This document shows positions 25,282 through 32,575 of a stretch of DNA of 64,000 bases, piece after piece; the first letter of the stretch is position 1, and every line of letters begins with the position of its first letter. Made by a program: the position numbers and the translations under genes. Where the stretch lies: NCBI RefSeq assembly GCF_003261175.1, contig NZ_QLNP01000098.1, positions 1 to 64,000 on the forward strand, given 5' to 3'. Below the pieces are notes generated by a model. That model saw nothing but the letters and a program-made list of their open reading frames with translations. It was not told where the DNA came from and did no database searches. The stretch comes from Arthrobacter globiformis (GTDB lineage: Bacteria; Actinomycetota; Actinomycetes; Actinomycetales; Micrococcaceae).

Positions 25282-25889
25282 TTCACAGCGCGAACGTACA
25301 GCTGGGCCGCAGGTCCTGGGGCTAGTTGTATTACCTACGATCCGTAATGCTTCGATGCATTTATCTGCCTCATTATGGGTACGTGACAGCATACCTGCTG
25401 GTCACCGCGCGCCCGAGGAACCAAGTAGTAAGCGATGCTGAAAAACGAGTACTCGTTGTGCGTGCGCTATAGTTGCGCCTCACCTAGGCTAGGTAGTCCG
25501 AAAGTCCTCTAGCCACAGGGGCACAATCGCGGCAAGGCCAGAGGGGGCCTCTGCGCGGAGAGACCAGAAATGGAATCCGCGCCCACTCTTCACAACACGC
25601 TGCACGGTGAGGTGCGGCCACAATCAAAGCAAAAGCAGGAATAGCTCCGAACTTGCGATGTCCGGAGGCTGCCTCGCTGAGGTTCCAGACCCGCGCGGAA
25701 TGCGCTGGCGAGGAATTCACGTGCGTGACACACGCAATGTGTATTCTCAAGAAGTTCTCATAAAAAGATTTTGTAGAAATAAACAGGAAACGTCTTTTCA
25801 GTTCGCGCATTCATCGGTTAGGGTGGTTCCCACGCCGCTTTCACCGAGAATAACTGAAAGGGCGGGGGTGCTGTTCAACCCCATTGGTT
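25282..25889. promoter_or_regulatory. Long non-coding upstream region of secreted paralogue A
   Basis: No supported gene in 600 bases. The stretch from about 25450 to 25590 is related to 31610-31745, upstream of paralogue C. Both have CGAGTACTC, then a run with TCGCGGCAAGGCCAG and CTxTGCGCGGA. It is therefore a conserved far-upstream promoter or regulatory region, not decayed coding DNA. Confidence 0.5.
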
Positions 25890-26187
25890 CCGGTCACAGT
25901 CACTGATCCACTGTTATTGAACAGGTATCCCACCAGGCACACGAATTGTGCCGCTTGCAACCATGGCTCTTCCAAATAACAGGCACAAAGTAGTCCGCTG
26001 CCTGACGTTTGATCGGCATGGGAAAAGTATCCAAGTGCAGCTGAAGCAGCATGACGGCACGCTCGGATCAATAACCGTTGACTGCGCCCAGGGGTGTACT
26101 GCGCCCAGGCGAAAGAGCGCCGCAATGATGCGGGCCTTTCTGCTCGGCGGTTCCTTTTGGATATTTACTCGCTAGGAAACCATTCCA
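25890..26187 (+). promoter_or_regulatory. Conserved structured leader A
   Basis: Shares ordered blocks with the regions before 27100 and 32102: CCACTG-TTGAACAGGTATCCC, then a hairpin GGCAC/GTGCC (25936-25940, 25948-25952), then GCAACCA, CCTGACGTT, CATGGGAAAAGTATCCAAG (26017 on) and AATAACCGT. The hairpin sequence differs between copies but stays paired. A frame of 75 codons (25948-26175) crosses it but is not kept in the other copies. Confidence 0.65.
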
Positions 26188-26505
26188 ATGAATACAGCAT
26201 CTCGCCTTATCAGCACCGCTGTGCTCGCCGCGGGCCTGACCCTCGGCAGCGCAGCACTCACTGCCGGAGCTGCTTCTGCGGACGCAGGGCCGACGACGAC
26301 CTATTCGTCCACGCAGCACAGCAGCTACGACAAAGACGGCTTTGATAAGGCCGGCTTCAACCGCCAGGGCAAGGACTGCAACGGCCACTGGAGGCACTGG
26401 GGCAAGGACAAAGGCAAGCATCATGACAAGGGCAAGTGCCACGGCAACCTACCCAAGTACCCGCATCCCAAGGATCCGGTCCACCCCATCTACCCGCAGC
26501 GCTAG
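26188..26505 (+). CDS. Small secreted Gly/Lys/His-rich protein (paralogue A)
   Basis: 105 residues. The signal peptide NTASRLISTAVLAAGLTLG ends at ASA-DAG near residue 32. The mature chain is short and polar: TTYSSTQHSSYDKDGFDKAG, then K/H/G-rich (HWGKDKGKHHDKGK) and a Pro-rich end. Its N-terminal 50 residues are nearly those of the proteins at 27100 and 32102, but it lacks their long repeats. Function unknown; the composition suggests a disordered wall-associated or metal-binding protein. Expression is probably set through the conserved leader. Confidence 0.75.
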   Translation: MNTASRLISTAVLAAGLTLGSAALTAGAASADAGPTTTYSSTQHSSYDKDGFDKAGFNRQGKDCNGHWRHWGKDKGKHHDKGKCHGNLPKYPHPKDPVHPIYPQR

Positions 26506-26556
26506 TTCCGCATAAGGCTGCGGCCCCCAGCAGCGTTAATTCCGCTGGGTCATCAT

Positions 26557-26580
26557 GGCTTTTTCGATTATGAAAAAGCC
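26557..26580 (+). terminator. Hairpin terminator after paralogue A
   Basis: Perfect 9-bp stem GGCTTTTTC/GAAAAAGCC with a six-base loop, about 50 bases after the stop. The A/T-rich arm gives U-runs on both strands. Confidence 0.65.
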
Positions 26581-26784
26581 GATCCCAAATAGAACTCGCT
26601 GATTGGTCATGCGCTTTTTCGGTCGATGAAACATAATGCGATGACGGACGCCGTGATTGTGCAAAGCCGGGTAGTAAGAAAATTTCGACCGAATTAGAGA
26701 TTGGGTCTTTTCAAAATCGGAATTCGTCGGTAGCGTAGTTATTAGCCCCAAGACACATCGGGGAAGCGGAAAGATTTGGGCTAC

Positions 26785-27099
26785 TGTTTCAGTCCATTGG
26801 TTTAGTCAACATTGACCGCTCCACTGCTTGAACAGGTATCCCGCCGAGCACGGTATCGTGCTCACTCGCAACCAGGGCTCTCCAGAACAATAGGCGCAAG
26901 AGTTATTCATCGCCTGACGTTCTACGGCCATGGGAAAACTATCCAAGTGCGGTGCTGATTCGCCGTAATTGATCGCTTGGACAAATAACCGTAGAAACCT
27001 GCAGGGTGAAGTGCGCCCAGATAACGCACATTCGCAATGTCGCGCACCCTACTGGTCTACGGCTCCTTATGAATAACAACTTGCAAGGAAACAACTCCA
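26785..27099 (+). promoter_or_regulatory. Conserved structured leader B
   Basis: Blocks in the same order as leader A: CATTGGTTTAGTCAAC, TTGAACAGGTATCCC, hairpin GAGCAC/GTGCTC (26846-26851, 26858-26863), CACTCGCAACCAGGGCTC, and CATGGGAAAACTATCCAAG (26929 on). Near the 3' end AGGGTG (27003) can pair with CACCCT (27045), or GTGCGC (27011) with GCGCAC (27042). These two pairings overlap and exclude each other. Confidence 0.65.
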
Positions 27100-27834
27100 A
27101 TGAACACAGCATCTCGCCTCATCACCACCACCGTTCTCGCCGCAGGCTTGACCTTCGGCGGCGCGGCCCTCACTGCCGGAGCTGCTTCTGCGGACATCGG
27201 GTCGAAGACGACCTATTCGTCCACGCAGCACAGCAAGTACGACAGCCACGGCTACGACAACAAGGGCTACGACAAGTGGGGCTACGACAAGTGGGGCTAC
27301 AACAAGAACGGCAAGGACTGCAAGGGCTACGACCGTAATTGGAACAAGCATTACAACAAGGGACGGGCCCACAATCGGCCCGGTCATCCGGGGTACGGTG
27401 ACTACAAGCCGGGCAAGCCGGGTTACGGCAATAACAAGCCGGGCAAGCCGGGTTACGGCAACAACAAGCCGGGCAAGCCGGGTTACGGCAACAACAAGCC
27501 GGGCAAGCCGGGTTACGGCAATAACAAGCCGGGCAAGCCGGGTTACGGCAATAACAAGCCGGGCAAGCCGGGTTACGGCAATAACAAGCCGGGCAAGCCG
27601 GGTTACGGCAATAACAAGCCGGGCAAGCCGGGTTACGGCAACAACAAGCCGGGCAAGCCGGGTTACGGCAATAACAAGCCGGGCAAGCCGGGTTACGGCA
27701 ATAACAAGCCGGGCAAGCCGGGTTACGGCAACAACAAGCCGGGCAAGCCGGGTTACGGCAACAACAAGCCGGGCAAGCCGGGCTACGGCAACAACAAGCC
27801 AGGCTACCCGAGCAAGCCGGCGCCCCGTCGCTAG
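27100..27834 (+). CDS. Secreted repeat protein with 13 KPGYGNNKPG units (paralogue B)
   Basis: 244 residues. The signal peptide NTASRLITTTVLAAGLTFG is cleaved near ASA-DIG. A YSSTQHSKYDSHGYDNKG region with three GYD-type repeats is followed, from about residue 100, by 13 perfect decapeptides (KPGYGNNKPG) and a short basic Pro-rich tail. Gly, Pro, Tyr, Asn and Lys dominate, giving an extended, basic, disordered polymer, like some adhesive or wall-cover proteins. Function is unknown. The repeat number is probably unstable. It shares leader, signal peptide and 3' hairpins with paralogue C. Confidence 0.78.
   Translation: MNTASRLITTTVLAAGLTFGGAALTAGAASADIGSKTTYSSTQHSKYDSHGYDNKGYDKWGYDKWGYNKNGKDCKGYDRNWNKHYNKGRAHNRPGHPGYGDYKPGKPGYGNNKPGKPGYGNNKPGKPGYGNNKPGKPGYGNNKPGKPGYGNNKPGKPGYGNNKPGKPGYGNNKPGKPGYGNNKPGKPGYGNNKPGKPGYGNNKPGKPGYGNNKPGKPGYGNNKPGKPGYGNNKPGYPSKPAPRR
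27411..27800 (+). repeat. Thirteen tandem 30-bp coding repeats
   Basis: The unit begins GGGCAAGCCGGGTTACGGCA and ends AACAAGCC. Copies differ only by a synonymous T/C in one Asn codon and one GGC/GGT change in the last unit, which shows very recent expansion or homogenisation. Confidence 0.95.
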
Positions 27835-27866
27835 CCCCGCGTAACCTACCCAGCACGCACAAAAGG

Positions 27867-27953
27867 TTTGACTCCGCGGGGCCGTTCTCACCAGCGTCCC
27901 CGCGGAATCAAAATAAAGGAAGCGGTCTCTTGCGCGCCTGCGGAGGCCGCTTC
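27867..27953 (+). terminator. Double hairpin after paralogue B
   Basis: First hairpin: TTTGA plus CCGCGGGG paired with CCCCGCGG plus TCAAA across a 2x2 mismatch. Second: GAAGCGG (27919) with CCGCTTC (27947). The same two hairpins, with altered but still paired bases, follow paralogue C at 32609-32698. Confidence 0.75.
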
Positions 27954-28083
27954 TGGCGTGCATGCCCATCGCGAGCTTCACAGCCTCATCACAGCACGGC
28001 GACAGAAGGGCCAAAGGCCTGGCGGACAGGATTAGGGAGAAAGCTCCGGGAAGCATCGGAGCGGTACCCCTGAGGAGCCCCAC

Positions 28084-29415
28084 ATGCACACGGAGTCCAG
28101 CCACAATCCTGTCGCTCACACCGACGAGCCGCACGGTACGGCCCCTCTGCCCATGGTTCCTCCTGCCACTGCCCCGTCGGCTTTTGGTCCCGTGCCCCCT
28201 GCGCCGCCTGTTCCACCGGTCCGGCTACGGGACAAGAAGAGGGTTGGCCCCGCAGTCTTCGTCACCTGCCTTGTGGCGGCCGGACTCCTGGGCGGCGGGG
28301 TGGCTTCCGGTGTTTCAGCACTGTGGCCCGACGCGCCAGCACAGGCAGCCACCACGGCGCAGGCGGCGATCGGCCCGGTCATCGTCAACAACACGGAGAG
28401 CGTCAACGCCGTCACCGCCGCCGCGCAGAAGGCCTCACCCAGCGTGGTGACCATCAGCGTCAGCTCCGGCAGTTCAGGTGGCACCGGATCGGGCATCATC
28501 CTGGACACGGAGGGCCACATCCTCACCAACACCCACGTGGTGACACTGGACGGGGCAGCGGCGGATGCCGCCGTCGAGGTCCGCACCAGCGACGGGCAGG
28601 TCTACAAGGCCACCATCGTAGGCATCGACCCGCTCTCCGACCTGGCCGTCATCAAGATCAATGCCGCCGGGCTGACCCCGGCAACCCTCGGTGACTCGTC
28701 TGCTGTCAACGTCGGTGACGCCGCCATAGCGATCGGCGCACCCCTGGGACTCAGCGGCACCGTCACGGACGGGATCGTCTCCGCCGTGAACCGCACCATC
28801 GAGACGGAGTCCTCCGCCACCACCGATGGATCCTCGTCCCAGGGCGGAAGCGCGTCGCAGAACCCGTTCGGTTCCCAGTCCGGCATCTCGGCCCCCGCGC
28901 AGGACTCCATCAGCATCAACGTCATCCAGACGGACGCAGCCATCAACCCCGGCAACTCCGGCGGCGCCCTGGTGAACGGGCAGGGCGAGATCATCGGCGT
29001 CAACGTGGCCATCGCATCGGCGGGCTCGTCGTCCTCGTCGAGCTCGAGCGGCAACATCGGCGTCGGCTTCTCCATCCCGATCAATCAGGCGAAGAGGGTG
29101 GCGGAGGAGATCATCTCCACGGGCAAGGCAACCCATGGCCAGCTGGGACTGTCCGTTCAGGACAAAACGTCAGGGTCGTCGTCGGACTTCACCGCCGGCG
29201 CCGAGGTGGCCTCGGTGACCTCCGGGTCCGCGGCGGATAAGGCCGGGCTGCAGGCCGGCGACGTGGTGACCGGGCTGGGCGGCCGGACCGTGACGGACGC
29301 CTCCGAGCTGACGGCAGCCGCCCGCGAGCAGGCCGCCGGATCCACCGTGAAGATCACCTTCCAGCGCAACGGCCAGGAGCAGACCGCGGACATCACGCTG
29401 GATGCGGCGTCCTGA
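28084..29415 (+). CDS. HtrA-like trypsin-family serine protease with PDZ domain
   Basis: 443 residues, membrane-anchored. A cytoplasmic Pro-rich N-terminus (to about 50), a transmembrane helix (VGPAVFVTCLVAAGLLGGGV), then an S1C protease domain with His151 (TNTHVV), Asp186 (DLAVIK) and Ser292 (GNSGGA). A Ser-rich loop (residues 240-262) and a second Ser run near 318-325 interrupt it. The PDZ domain (about 345-440) has AGLQAGDVVTGLGGRTV. Such proteins degrade or refold damaged exported proteins, which fits the surrounding secretome island. ATG 28084 follows AGGAG closely. Confidence 0.9.
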   Translation: MHTESSHNPVAHTDEPHGTAPLPMVPPATAPSAFGPVPPAPPVPPVRLRDKKRVGPAVFVTCLVAAGLLGGGVASGVSALWPDAPAQAATTAQAAIGPVIVNNTESVNAVTAAAQKASPSVVTISVSSGSSGGTGSGIILDTEGHILTNTHVVTLDGAAADAAVEVRTSDGQVYKATIVGIDPLSDLAVIKINAAGLTPATLGDSSAVNVGDAAIAIGAPLGLSGTVTDGIVSAVNRTIETESSATTDGSSSQGGSASQNPFGSQSGISAPAQDSISINVIQTDAAINPGNSGGALVNGQGEIIGVNVAIASAGSSSSSSSSGNIGVGFSIPINQAKRVAEEIISTGKATHGQLGLSVQDKTSGSSSDFTAGAEVASVTSGSAADKAGLQAGDVVTGLGGRTVTDASELTAAAREQAAGSTVKITFQRNGQEQTADITLDAAS

Positions 29416-29514
29416 ACCATCACCAGCGGCGCAGTTGTAATGCGTTCAGTGAATACGTCGATTTCCTAGTGGGTCCTGTGCCGGCGCTCCTTCACGCTCG
29501 CATGCTGGGCGCAC

Positions 29515-29811
29515 CTAGCCGCTGCAGTCCACCTTAAAAATGACGTCCGGTGAATCGGAAGAAAAGTGGAAACGGACGCTCTGATTTGGTGTAGCCCCCA
29601 TGCTGACCAGCGTTGTTTTCTCATCGTCGAGAGTCAATAGCCCCGTGGAGGCTCTGACCAGCAGAAGATTGAAGTGGACCACGTATTTACTGCCCTGCGC
29701 CCCCGTCCCCTTGCCGTGAATGATGAGGCTGGTCCTGAACGAGCCGTCGGCGTTTAGCTTGTCTATTGTGACCGCGTTGCCAGTGAAACTGACGAGTTCC
29801 CGGCCGTGGTC
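29515..29811 (-). pseudogene. C-terminal fragment of an unknown exported protein
   Basis: An open frame of 98 codons without a usable start: a TAA stands directly upstream of DHGRELVSFTGNAVTIDK. The translation is protein-like (FRTSLIIHGKGTGAQGSKY, LLVRASTGLLTLDDEKTT, ending FKVDCSG) and suggests the beta-rich C-terminal half of a secreted or lipoprotein domain. No family recognised. The 5' part seems lost at the junction with the next, also broken, gene. Confidence 0.4.
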
Positions 29812-29829
29812 TTAGATGTCTAGGCTTGA

Positions 29830-30126
29830 CAATCCGCTGGCACCACGGCCGGTGCGCTGCCTGCGACTTCACGTTCGCTGGACAGGCTCAATGAGCTGGT
29901 CCACTCGCCGGTCCGCTTTTCCATCATGGCAGCGCTGGCTCGTGCGGAATCCCTGGACTTCAAGGACCCCCGTGACGCCATCCAGGTCAGCGATTCCGTG
30001 CTCAGCAAACAGCTGTCCAACCGGGAACAGGCCGGCAATGTAAAGATCAAAAAGACGTTCGCGGGAATGCTGCCTCGAACGTCGGCGAGTTTGACCCCGA
30101 GCGGACGCGAGGCTTGGGCTGTTCCT
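29830..30126 (+). pseudogene. Winged-helix regulator remnant
   Basis: The frame RLNELVHSPVRFSIMAALA, then QVSDSVLSKQLSNREQAGN and KTFAGMLPRTSASLTPSGRE matches the one-domain winged-helix DNA-binding proteins related to MarR/ArsR. There is no ATG before residue 33 and a TGA stands at 29827-29829. The C-terminal helix after GREAWA does not continue as in the family. Both ends are damaged, so it is probably inactive. Confidence 0.65.
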
Positions 30127-30169
30127 GCGCCAGACTGCCGTAGGTGCTGGTTGGAGATAGGCGTCCCCG

Positions 30170-30421
30170 TCACTCGTCCGTGGCCTGGATCTCAACATTC
30201 TCAAGCGTCACGGCACCATGCTGGATCTTGTCCGCCAGGCCATTCTGGATGGCCAGCGCCAGGATGTGGCCGGCATTCACCGGGTCCTGCGCCACCTGGG
30301 CCGGGGCTGTCATGTCCGGCTCCTCGTCCGTGGTGTACAGGGGGGTAGCCAGGGCCGCGGCCTGAATCGCGCTGGCGTCAGCCTTGATGTCGATTACGAG
30401 CGAAATCCGAAGATGGGTCAT
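30170..30421 (-). CDS. Hypothetical protein, 83 residues
   Basis: A GAGGAG ribosome site stands eight bases before the ATG. The sequence begins MTHLRISLVIDIKADASA, contains a conserved-looking PLYTTDEEPDMTAP, then a helix (AGHILALAIQNGLADKI) and an acidic end (VTLENVEIQATDE). It is acidic overall, soluble and without a signal peptide. No family recognised. It stands alone between a regulator remnant and a secreted-protein gene. Confidence 0.65.
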   Translation of the reverse strand: MTHLRISLVIDIKADASAIQAAALATPLYTTDEEPDMTAPAQVAQDPVNAGHILALAIQNGLADKIQHGAVTLENVEIQATDE

Positions 30422-30862
30422 GGCGTGTTCTCCTCATCCGAAGGGTGCCCGGGGTTTGAACTGTACCGCCTGCTGCCGGGAAGGTGAATGGCAAAAGGGC
30501 GCCCGCGCCCGCGCCCGTCGAGCCGGCCTCGGCTGCAGGGCTGGCAGCTGCTTTCATCTTCCGGTGGGTGCTGCGTTGCTTTGTTTCGTCCGGAAACGGC
30601 TGAGCCCGACGGGTACCGACCTGGTCATCGTCGGGCAATCAAAGTTTGAGGAAATAGGTGCTCACAGCGAAAGTCGGGCGTATTATATTGAAGTACCGGA
30701 TCCAAGGAATGAGCCTTGAAAACGAATCCGGCCTCCAGGTCTCCCGTAGTTTAAGGGAGCCTTTTTTAATTTGGGGCAAACGGCTGACTCAGCCTGCCAG
30801 TGTAGGGATCGGCCAGCGCTGCCCGCCCACAAAACAAATTTGCAGAAATGCAGGAGAAAGAA
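30422..30862. other. Intergenic region with attenuator-like hairpin
   Basis: About 440 bases with no supported gene. It should contain the promoter of the minus-strand 83-residue gene and of the secreted protein at 30863. TATTATATTG near 30690 is a possible -10. A terminator-like hairpin follows before the gene. Confidence 0.4.
30741..30768 (+). terminator. Terminator-like hairpin upstream of a secreted-protein gene
   Basis: CTCCC and GGGAG with a nine-base loop, then CCTTTTTTAATTT. It is one of the few true T-run terminators in the window. It lies about 95 bases before ATG 30863, so it either ends upstream transcription or attenuates the gene. Confidence 0.65.
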
Positions 30863-31417
30863 ATGACTACAACTCCGACGACCCGTAGCCGCCGTTCCTT
30901 CGCCGCCCGGCTGGCGATGATTTCGACAGTTTCCTTGGGTCTGCTCGCTGGCCCCATCGCCATGGCCGCACCAGCTACAGCGTCGAACGATCATTCCAGA
31001 AAAGCCGAGTGCACCGTCAAGGCGCTCGACCCGTACAAAAAGGACAATGGGCGGAACGCCATGAGCCGCGACAACCGCAAGGACCGTGATGTACGGGTTG
31101 CGTTCGCGTTCAGGATCCACTGCGACAAGGACGCCGATGTTCGCTACAACCAGAAGATGTTCCAGGTGCACAACCGCTGGGACAACGAGAAAATCGGGGA
31201 CGCCTGGGATACCGTCTCGGTTTCGGGCCGCCACGACAAGATCATCAATGTGGAGAAGGTAACTGCTGACCGGGGCGACCACTTCGTCAAGGTCTACCAC
31301 ACTGTTCGGATCCGTGTGGAGGACAATGGCCATCGTGGCCACGGGAACGGGAACGGCTCGTCCGATTTCAGCCGCAGTGACACCGTTAAGATCTGGGTCA
31401 ACAACAACCATAAGTAG
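30863..31417 (+). CDS. Secreted basic protein of unknown function
   Basis: 184 residues from ATG 30863, chosen for AGGAG six bases upstream. The signal peptide (FAARLAMISTVSLGLLAGPI) ends near ATASND. The mature protein has two Cys (AECTVKAL and RIHCDKDA), many Lys/Arg/Asp, and a beta-rich pattern (DTVSVSGRHDKIINVEKVTA). A Gly/His/Asn-rich linker precedes the end. No family recognised. A 16-bp perfect terminator follows, so it forms its own transcription unit. Confidence 0.75.
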   Translation: MTTTPTTRSRRSFAARLAMISTVSLGLLAGPIAMAAPATASNDHSRKAECTVKALDPYKKDNGRNAMSRDNRKDRDVRVAFAFRIHCDKDADVRYNQKMFQVHNRWDNEKIGDAWDTVSVSGRHDKIINVEKVTADRGDHFVKVYHTVRIRVEDNGHRGHGNGNGSSDFSRSDTVKIWVNNNHK

Positions 31418-31454
31418 GAGTCCGCGGACTTTACGCTGACTGACTAGCGACTGG

Positions 31455-31493
31455 GAGGACGACGGCGGCACCGCAAGTGCCGCCGTCGTCCTC
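31455..31493 (+). terminator. Strong hairpin terminator
   Basis: Perfect 16-bp stem GAGGACGACGGCGGCA with a seven-base loop, 38 bases after the stop of the secreted protein. Confidence 0.8.
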
Positions 31494-31599
31494 TGTCCGC
31501 ACGACTTCCCCGAAGCGGTGCCCGGCTTTCTGCTGCGTGCGGCCGGCGGCCGGCGGCCGAATGGCTGGCCTCTGGCACCCGGGTAGGTAAGTAGTGGAT

Positions 31600-32101
31600 G
31601 GGACCTAAATTCGAGTACTCTTCCGGGGTGCGTTCATGTTGCATGTCCCATAGGGTAGATACAACCCAAAAGACCCCACATCACAGGGGCGGCATCGCGG
31701 CAAGGCCAGCTGGGCGCCTTTGCGCGGATAAAACCATAACGAAATCCGTGCATCCTTTTCTTTGTACGCCATCAACGCAGAACTTTGACGTGCCTAATCT
31801 CGGATTGACGAAGAAACCGCACGCTGACAAATAAATAACAGTGCAACAAAAGAACGCCGGGCACTCGAACATGCTCACTCGCAACGCCTGCTCATTGCAT
31901 CGCATGACGTTGGATCGGGAGCATGGGAAATACTATCCAGGTGCGGTGTTAATCGACGCCGTAATTCGAATCAAAGCCTGGGTAAACGGACGCAGGCAGC
32001 ACCTCCAAGGGTGAAGTGCGCACATGCGATGTGCGCTGCAATGTTGCGCACCCTGCAGCTCTGCGCCTCCTTATGAGCTACACCCGCTAGGACCACTTTC
32101 C
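31600..32101 (+). promoter_or_regulatory. Upstream region and conserved structured leader C
   Basis: The 5' part (31610-31745) matches the region upstream of leader A. The 3' part repeats the leader plan: imperfect hairpin GGGCAC/ATGCTC (31859, 31871), CACTCGCAAC, CATGGGAAATACTATCCAGG (31922 on), CGCCGTAATT. Then AGGGTG (32008) faces CACCCT (32049), GTGCGC (32016) faces GCGCAC (32046), and a perfect inner hairpin GCGCACAT/ATGTGCGC lies between. Confidence 0.65.
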
Positions 32102-32575
32102 ATGAACACAGCATCTCGCGTTATCAGCACTACTGTTCTCGCCGCAGGCTTGACTCTCGGTGGCGCCGCACTCACTGCCGGAGCCGCTTCTGCTGACACT
32201 GGATCGAAGACGACCCAGAGCTATTCGTCGCAGCACAGGTACGACAACGGAGGGTACGACCGCGACGGCTACGACCGCTCTGGCTACGACCGTCACGGGT
32301 ATGACCGTCACGGCTGTGACCGTCACGGGTATGACCGTCACGGTCATGACCGTCACGGGTATGACCGTCGCGGGTATGACCGCAACGGCTACGACCGTAA
32401 TGGGTATGACCGCCGCGGCTACGACCACCGCGGTTACGACCGCTCGGGTTACGACTGCCACGGCAAGGACCGCCACGGTCACGGCCGTGACTGGGATAAG
32501 GACAAGAGGGGAGACTACCGGGACGGCAAGCACAAGGGAGGGCACGACAACCAGCCCAAGCGCCCGCATCGGTAG
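32102..32575 (+). CDS. Secreted GYDRHGYDR-repeat protein (paralogue C)
   Basis: 157 residues from ATG 32102. The frame is open for 26 more codons upstream, but homology with the two paralogues starts here. The signal peptide NTASRVISTTVLAAGLTLG is cleaved near ASA-DTG. The mature chain is about 17 pentapeptide-like units of GYDRx with x = H, S, N or R, including CDRHGYDRHGHDRHG, then a basic end with CHGKDRHGHGRDW. It is rich in Asp, Arg, Tyr, Gly and His; metal binding or surface adhesion is possible but unproven. It shares leader and 3' hairpins with paralogue B. Confidence 0.76.
   Translation: MNTASRVISTTVLAAGLTLGGAALTAGAASADTGSKTTQSYSSQHRYDNGGYDRDGYDRSGYDRHGYDRHGCDRHGYDRHGHDRHGYDRRGYDRNGYDRNGYDRRGYDHRGYDRSGYDCHGKDRHGHGRDWDKDKRGDYRDGKHKGGHDNQPKRPHR

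Follow-up and report, generated by a model that had tools for sequence, protein, structure and literature searches.

The mRNAs of cspA-type cold-shock genes carry long, structured 5' untranslated regions (5' UTRs) that act near the ribosome site, ydaO-type c-di-AMP riboswitches precede actinobacterial genes for secreted cell-wall hydrolases, and ANTAR-target RNAs bear a signature of two tandem hairpins with conserved loop letters. Orphan riboswitch candidates, among them the dauA, purS and pntA motifs, have been described through comparative genomics of intergenic regions (PMC11109978). We describe here three paralogous leaders, A, B and C, which precede genes at positions 26188, 27100 and 32102, respectively, in a 64,000-nucleotide (nt) stretch of Arthrobacter globiformis DNA (GCF_003261175.1, contig NZ_QLNP01000098.1, positions 1-64,000, forward strand; hereafter, the window), together with their relatives, which fall into three leader types. 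Our computations show that related leaders stand before genes of one protein family, that they fold beyond what shuffled sequences do, and that they possibly share a long-range helix close to the start codon. From these predictions, we consider it probable that the leaders are an orphan family of large, structured, cis-regulatory 5' leader RNAs, found here only in Arthrobacter, that act on the start of translation.

The Arthrobacter leaders resemble those of the cspA type as long structured 5' UTRs with a predicted action near the ribosome site; they differ in being larger, in preceding other genes and in having no match in Rfam. They resemble the ydaO-type RNAs as large leaders before secreted-protein genes in actinobacteria; however, our Rfam searches gave no match to ydaO. 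At the gathering cut-off Rfam gave 0 matches in the whole window, and at relaxed E nothing exceeded the gathering score in the type-1 region or, tRNAs apart, in 7 type-2 and 10 type-3 loci. An earlier sequence-only reading of this DNA had likewise matched the leaders to no riboswitch class familiar to its reader. ANTAR-target RNAs (PMC8164766) are also structured leaders in actinobacterial mRNAs. The orphan candidates of PMC11109978, in its passages on the dauA, purS and pntA motifs, are also structured, lie upstream of one gene group and are in some cases restricted to a genus, and some overlap or can mask the Shine-Dalgarno (SD) sequence; they differ from the present case, in which three diverged architectures share one gene family. 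The genus name Arthrobacter has 0 occurrences in the main texts of PMC11109978, PMC8632094 and PMC6429828, and no paper on these leaders was among the literature matches listed, as judged by title and start of abstract in a source that largely leaves out subscription papers.

The likeness among leaders A, B and C is far above chance. Leaders A and B align at 70% over 343 columns (E ~2e-30) and B and C at 71% over 220 columns (E ~1e-14), and a search of the same genome with leader B matched only the A, B and C sites, plus 23 nt at E 0.11. The sequence-only reading had named a series of ordered blocks common to the leaders and an early hairpin whose letters differ between copies; every block was located, and the hairpin is present in all three leaders and still pairable, with just 59.5% of cells pairing at it in the type-1 alignment used. 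A second helix, further 3', pairs in 87.5% of cells (7 sequences), with one pair changed on both sides. The leader length of 260-310 nt given in that reading has to be revised, since A and B probably start near 25832 and 26744, respectively. These features are listed below; numbers preceded by G, L or C label genomes, loci and elements.

25832-26187, + strand: leader A, predicted 356 nt, its start taken from a promoter-like motif; orthologues in G129 and G188 are 87-89% identical
26744-27099, + strand: leader B, predicted 356 nt, its start taken from a promoter-like motif
31845-32101, + strand: leader C, core part, as placed by the type-1 alignment
25917-25931 (A) and 26828-26842 (B), + strand: block TTGAACAGGTATCCC, located by sequence
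26863-26872 (B) and 31876-31885 (C), + strand: block CACTCGCAAC, located by sequence
26017-26033 (A), 26929-26945 (B) and 31922-31939 (C), + strand: block CATGGGAAA..TATCCA, located by sequence
25936-25952, + strand: early hairpin of leader A, GGCAC/GTGCC
26846-26863, + strand: early hairpin of leader B, GAGCAC/GTGCTC, located by sequence
31859-31876, + strand: early hairpin of leader C, GGGCA/TGCTC, located by sequence
26940-26947 with 26976-26983, + strand: second helix in leader B, TATCCAAG/CTTGGACA, from the type-1 alignment
31934-31941 with 31977-31984, + strand: second helix in leader C, TATCCAGG/CCTGGGTA, from the type-1 alignment
26028-26035 with 26062-26069, + strand: second helix in leader A, from the type-1 alignment

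Related leaders were found in 33 of 207 Arthrobacter genomes: type 1 (the A/B kind) in 3 (G000, G129 and G188), type 2 in 12 and type 3 in 18, with no genome among the 207 carrying two types. We analysed 39 leaders, of which 7 were of type 1 (the alignment includes A129, A188, B0, B129 and C0), 12 of type 2 and 20 of type 3; a fourth G073 element (C275) and the partial L142 were left out of the type-3 set, and a 33-nt DNA match in G130 and most DNA matches of 20-45 nt were left out of the relatives. Each of the 39 stands before a gene of one secreted-protein family, a linkage that is partly by construction because many leaders were found via the protein; a search of the genus with a type-2 covariance model (R1, below), which made no use of the protein, added no leader before any other gene. 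A protein-profile search gave a match at E up to 1e-4 in 40 of the 207 genomes, comprising the 33 with a leader, G002 with a remnant, and 6 with lower-scoring proteins alone (G151, G085, G009, G118, G086 and G081), upstream of which a pattern search for the core motif found none.

Decayed or multiplied copies were also seen. G002 retains the far 5' block plus a gene fragment. G188 has kept the 5' part of a C-like leader and lost the remainder plus the gene, a natural deletion that fuses this 5' part to the region after the gene (L034, 7841-8163). G073, the only genome of the genus search with more than one type-3 element, has four, plus a partial leader (C292, C111, C275, C271 and C108), as counted with the type-3 model R2 described below. 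In G149, the gene after the type-3 leader (L134, from 1501) reads ATG TAG and may be dead or start elsewhere.

Evidence for a folded RNA came from comparing RNAalifold consensus folds with column shuffles of the same alignments. The z-scores were -4.3 for type 1 (0/100 shuffles as low), -8.0 for type 2 (0/60) and -5.0 for all 20 type-3 leaders (0/60), with values of -7.7 and -6.7 for the two main type-3 subgroups (0/60 each). When the comparison was repeated by strand, the sense strand scored lower than the antisense in type 1 (z -3.5 vs -2.5), in type 2 (-8.0 vs -5.6) and in a compact type-3 subgroup of seven sequences (-8.6 vs -4.0); the antisense strands also beat their own shuffles, though by less.

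Covariance models extended these observations. R2, built from the seven compact type-3 leaders, recovers the remaining 13 of this type with scores of 24-71 bits (in 54 kb, E 4.6e-18 to 2.3e-5). In the alignment derived from it, 87% of cells pair and 19 of 41 pairs show changes on both sides, against a shuffled mean of 9.5 and with 0/500 shuffles reaching 19; sliding the partners by 1-3 columns lowers pairing to 27-48%. R2 noise reaches up to 38 bits, and the leaders of G149, G059, G018, G044 and G190 were therefore accepted by their place before a family gene. R2 also matched in 13 extra genomes, of which the five inspected (G131, G008, G186, G145 and G085) proved to be coding DNA and were discarded, and the other eight, at 18.5-20.4 bits (G141, G189, G184, G119, G113, G029, G006 and G115), were left out. 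In 90 kb covering the window and relatives, R1, built from 11 type-2 leaders, gave four matches; the three with the highest scores are type-1 leaders from G129 and G188 (16-20 bits, with E of 0.026, 0.1 and 0.14), and the fourth lies in the protease gene. Seven R1 matches at 22-37 bits (in G145, G143, G191, G206 and G056, and second matches in G183 and G126) were discarded; by eye, they lie antisense in der/EngA-type coding DNA, whose antisense strand is resembled by about 23 nt of the type-2 core (GAGTCGACRACGA..GGACCGCG), either by chance or possibly with a pairing in trans. In G183 and G126 (L110 and L111), this DNA lies ~2-3 kb from the leader.

The sequence-only reading had proposed a covariance model of the three leaders and a search of Micrococcales genomes. 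R1 and R2, built from types 2 and 3, recover relatives within the genus, and R1 had no match in 69 genomes of the order. Against 295 genomes of the family, from 32 genera, R1 gave one true match, in its own genus, and one false one, and R2 had no match in 100 family genomes. Neither the 100 family genomes nor the 69 order genomes included one with a known copy, and they therefore limit the spread only weakly. Searches of plasmids with a type-1 leader plus gene, a type-2 leader and a type-3 leader gave no match, nor did a search of phages with a type-3 leader; another phage query was mostly gene.

In all three types, an AACCGYAG arm and a CUGCGG-like arm close to the start codon are able to pair, giving a possible long-range helix that ends ~40 nt ahead of the AUG. 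The copies in the window are as follows.

26987-26995 with 27056-27062, + strand: long-range helix of B, AACCGTAGA with TCTACGG; z -3.4, p 0.01 vs shuffled 3' region
31988-32000 with 32055-32067, + strand: long-range helix of C, GGACGCAGGCAGC with GCAGCTCTGCGCC; duplex free energy (dG) -17.1, z -1.6, p 0.06
26073-26077 with 26148-26152, + strand: long-range helix of A, the weakest copy, AACCG with CGGTT; located by sequence

Duplex scoring took 38 of the 39 leaders, leader A of the window having been missed by the arm-finding pattern; its orthologues A129 and A188 gave z -2.7 each. The duplex reached p<0.05 against single-base shuffles of the 3' region in 28 of the 38 (mean z -2.6 over the leaders scored); the 28 include L144, whose best duplex lies elsewhere. 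For L148, the pattern chose another upstream arm. Relative to the AUG, 31 of the 38 leaders have the start of the 3' arm at -44 to -50, while the 5' arm, L148 apart, varies from about -81 to -190. In type 1, 92.7% of cells pair at this helix, and 3 pairs have changed in both arms. Between copies the outer pairs vary in concert, being CCGTAGA/TCTACGG in B, CGCAG/CTGCG in C, CCGCAGACAGG/CCTG..CTGCGG in type 2, and CCGCAGGC/GCCTGCGG or CCGCAGAC/GTCTGCGG in type 3. Directly 5' of the AACCGYAG arm, each type has a separate helix of unrelated letters (TATCCAAG/CTTGGATA; CTCAAGC/GCTTGAG; GGTTCCC/GGGGCC). The near-fixed place of the long-range helix relative to the AUG suggests an action on initiation.

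The sequence-only reading had placed a switch in this region, formed by two mutually exclusive helices:

27003-27008 with 27045-27050 (B) and 32008-32013 with 32049-32054 (C), + strand: AGGGTG/CACCCT
27011-27016 with 27042-27047 (B) and 32016-32021 with 32046-32051 (C), + strand: GTGCGC/GCGCAC

Both pairings are indeed present in B and C, and across the seven type-1 leaders 85.7% and 83.3% of cells, respectively, are pairable. However, neither helix has a pair with both letters changed, 3 of the 7 leaders have lost some of the pairs, and for GTGCGC/GCGCAC a slide of 2 columns pairs equally well. Compensatory change thus lends this switch no support. A cis-regulatory RNA, as proposed in the same reading, is supported by the relatives, by the folds compared with shuffles and by the recurring helix; near the ribosome site, the AACCGYAG-CUGCGG helix and, in types 1 and 2, a UCCU-AGGA pairing are better supported than the proposed switch.

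The extent of the transcript was judged from promoter-like motifs, of which those before A and B, and the other upstream features of the window, are:

25794-25824, + strand: predicted promoter-like motif of A; CTTTTC, 19-nt spacer, TAGGGT
26707-26736, + strand: predicted promoter-like motif of B; CTTTTC, 18-nt spacer, TAGCGT
25446-25582, + strand: 5' block common to A and C, A copy, ~250 nt upstream of the predicted leader-A start
31612-31751, + strand: 5' block common to A and C, C copy, before leader C

A search of 560 nt upstream of gene A gave the motif listed for A as its sole candidate, and this motif has a similar place in G129 and G188. A motif of the form CTTNNN-like, 17-19 nt, TANNNT occurs at one place per leader in 6/6 type-1 leaders of the A and B kinds and 12/12 type-2 leaders, predicting starts at -342 to -364, and in 6/20 type-3 leaders, predicting starts at -364 to -391; it was not found before leader C. 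The strict form is present in 17 of 39 leaders, compared with 4 of 228 background windows; as these leaders themselves supplied the pattern, the motif and transcript start are predictions. The 5' block shared by A and C (69% over 140 nt, E 4e-9; E 9e-8 in a second comparison) was recognised by eye also in G188 and G002. At its start lies the palindrome GAGTACTC (25447-25454 and 31613-31620), possibly an operator. A strong inverted repeat at 31455-31493, after the gene ending at 31417 and present also in G188, is a likely terminator before leader C.

Conservation of leader and gene was compared in 18 pairs. The six type-1 orthologue pairs have leaders that are 81-89% identical, with 58-81% in the 200 nt before the promoter; this upstream region is less conserved than the leader in 6/6 type-1 and 5/5 type-3 pairs, and type 2 is mixed. 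In 6 of the 18 pairs the leader was kept (72-87% identical) while the mature coding part diverged (42-59%): B0 against B129 and B188, with leaders at 87% and 81% and mature parts at 42% and 45%, and L066/L073, L070/L071, L067/L074 and L138/L140. As the predicted fold is kept where sequence or protein has changed, the leader probably controls the amount of protein.

On the interpretation that we favour, transcription would start ~350 nt upstream of the genes, and the RNA would fold into several hairpin domains, with the long-range helix closing them close to the ribosome site. Together with the UCCU-AGGA pairing in types 1 and 2, that helix would control access to the SD sequence, and some signal (a small molecule, an ion, a protein or temperature) would set translation of the secreted protein. 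We put forward more tentatively, as a proposal somewhat short of an even chance, that the leaders represent a new genus-restricted class of large RNA sensor, with three architectures sharing the start-proximal long-range helix and serving fast-evolving secreted proteins, and that in some lineages this regulator would be better conserved than the protein it controls.

Several results weigh against a structured regulatory RNA of this kind. R1 matched none of the three leaders of the window, and its false matches in whole-genome coding DNA (22-37 bits) score above its type-1 matches, which we therefore take as supporting evidence only. R2 does not recognise type-1 or type-2 leaders, so it is their protein family, long-range helix and start-site region that tie these types to type 3; furthermore, the R2-derived alignment was fitted to the structure, and 2 of its 22 rows are false minus-strand matches. 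Covariation, which the sequence-only reading had offered as the check on its proposal, was not borne out by an unguided, tree-based, R-scape-like pair test on the 20 type-3 leaders, in which no pair was significant (best E 1.55), and the five both-sided pairs of type 1 alone (7 sequences) are reached by 99/500 shuffles. In 13 type-3 leaders scored, we observed no consistent partner or occlusion of the SD sequence. Of the 7 type-1 leaders, 5 (A129, A188, B0, B129 and C0) share an 11-codon open reading frame (ORF) whose start and stop align. Finally, in 6 of the 18 pairs it is the leader that is less conserved, trailing the mature coding part by at least 5 points.

Other explanations of the leaders must also be considered. 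A riboswitch in the strict sense, for a metabolite or ion, with the upstream domains as aptamer and the helix plus anti-SD stretch as expression platform, would account for the size, the several domains and the position before the SD sequence, and the leaders do present a conserved structured domain in the 5' UTR, in terms of predicted structure and predicted transcript start. Type 2 also has conserved unpaired stretches, such as CAACCG and ACAGG; yet the mean conservation of unpaired columns in this type is below that of paired columns (0.71 vs 0.89), and the restriction to one gene family and one genus, with no enzyme or transporter target to hint at a ligand, leads us to regard such a riboswitch as rather doubtful. 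Somewhat less likely still is a protein-binding site or stabiliser that protects the mRNAs of abundant secreted proteins with no switch, which would fit the tie to one secreted-protein family and the joint retention of promoter-like motif and leader in types 1 (A, B) and 2, but not so readily the near-fixed position of the long-range helix, with its suggestion of initiation.

An RNA thermosensor, in which temperature would melt or refold a helix over the SD sequence, as happens in the leaders of cold-shock mRNAs, bears on the following predicted pairings of the window.

27064-27068 with 27085-27089, + strand: anti-SD of B, TCCTT with AAGGA
26152-26156 with 26174-26178, + strand: anti-SD of A, TCCTT with AGGAA
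32068-32072 with 32089-32092, + strand: anti-SD of C, TCCTT with AGGA

The SD sequence has an unpaired probability of 0.12-0.34 in 7/7 type-1 leaders, and a UCCU-like stretch is its main partner in 6 of 7 type-1 and 6 of 11 type-2 leaders tested; in leader A of the window, other partners take up most of the SD letters. Four of the five UCCU-AGGA pairs of type 1 are invariant, and covariation thus speaks neither for nor against them; the anti-SD stretch of type 2 shares letters with the 3' arm of the long-range helix. Such occlusion, and the long leaders of cold-shock genes, would suit a thermosensor, but occlusion is not consistent in type 3, the long conserved upstream domains exceed what a thermometer needs, and no Rfam thermosensor matched; we think this explanation improbable.

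Still less probable, in our judgement, is that the leaders have no function as RNA and that recent duplication, slow upstream divergence, or promoter or operator DNA explains the blocks. A and B are tandem duplicates, the unguided covariation test was not significant, and antisense folds beat their shuffles too; however, folding beats shuffles in three types and more strongly on the sense strand, outside type 2 the leader is better conserved than the DNA ahead of the promoter, and pairing persists with changed letters across types. The slimmest chance belongs to a leader-peptide attenuator, in which ribosome passage or stalling on a short upstream ORF would set the downstream fold: the 11-codon type-1 ORF, with products such as MSRTLLVYGSL and MMRALLLCGSF, and the 3' arm of the long-range helix overlap, as in leader B (MSRTLLVYGSL, 27037-27072, + strand), a 12-codon ORF has the same start and stop in 4 of 7 type-1 leaders and a TTG-start ORF, the best pair, in 6 of 12 type-2 leaders, but no ORF is common to all leaders of any type, the best start-stop pair of type 3 occurs in 4 of 20, and an ATG ~27 nt before the gene in 11 of 20 type-3 leaders opens a frame that mostly runs past the aligned end.

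The genes that follow the leaders in the window, and a neighbour, are:

26188-26505, + strand: gene A, 105-amino-acid protein with a signal-peptide-like start
27100-27834, + strand: gene B, 244-amino-acid repeat protein with a signal-peptide-like start
32102-32575, + strand: gene C, 157-amino-acid repeat protein with a signal-peptide-like start
28084-29415, + strand: HtrA-like protease downstream of gene B, with Trypsin_2 and PDZ domains by Pfam

The family proteins have signal-peptide-like starts and are rich in Asp, His, Arg, Tyr and Gly; Pfam and NCBIfam gave no match above cut-off for 7 of them, and a fold prediction for one type-2 protein was of low confidence (mean predicted local distance difference test score, pLDDT, 59) apart from a three-stranded C-terminal part. 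At 27390-27800, gene B encodes a long series of almost identical decapeptides, KPGYGNNKPG, in place of which its orthologues in G129 and G188 have other Gly/His/Asn-rich repeats. In L131 and L133, the type-3 genes have a protease of the same make-up as the one near gene B (Trypsin_2 plus PDZ) upstream of them, and a tRNA gene lies near 7/7 type-2 leaders scanned, as in L066, with tRNA-Pro and nearby genes for an Fpg-like glycosylase and an EngA-like protein. Upstream of another small secreted-protein family (MNKAIR.../MNKTIH.../MKNALR...), perfect palindromes GGGACTAAAGTCCC or GGGACTTTAGTCCC occur in 4 of 14 loci searched (L152, 545-558; L151, 740-753; L154, 416-429; L161, 456-469); they resemble the box of the dormancy regulator DosR.

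Conserved folds in long leaders are frequently a sign of sensing, and work on orphan leaders has uncovered new ligands and pathways. The present leader has been retained in several lineages while the mature protein diverged. With 39 examined copies, predicted starts and a specific helix to mutate, the question of its function is directly testable in soil bacteria. The leaders also give a first handle on a group of unannotated small secreted proteins, which in two of the leader types adjoin an HtrA-like protease where this was looked at.

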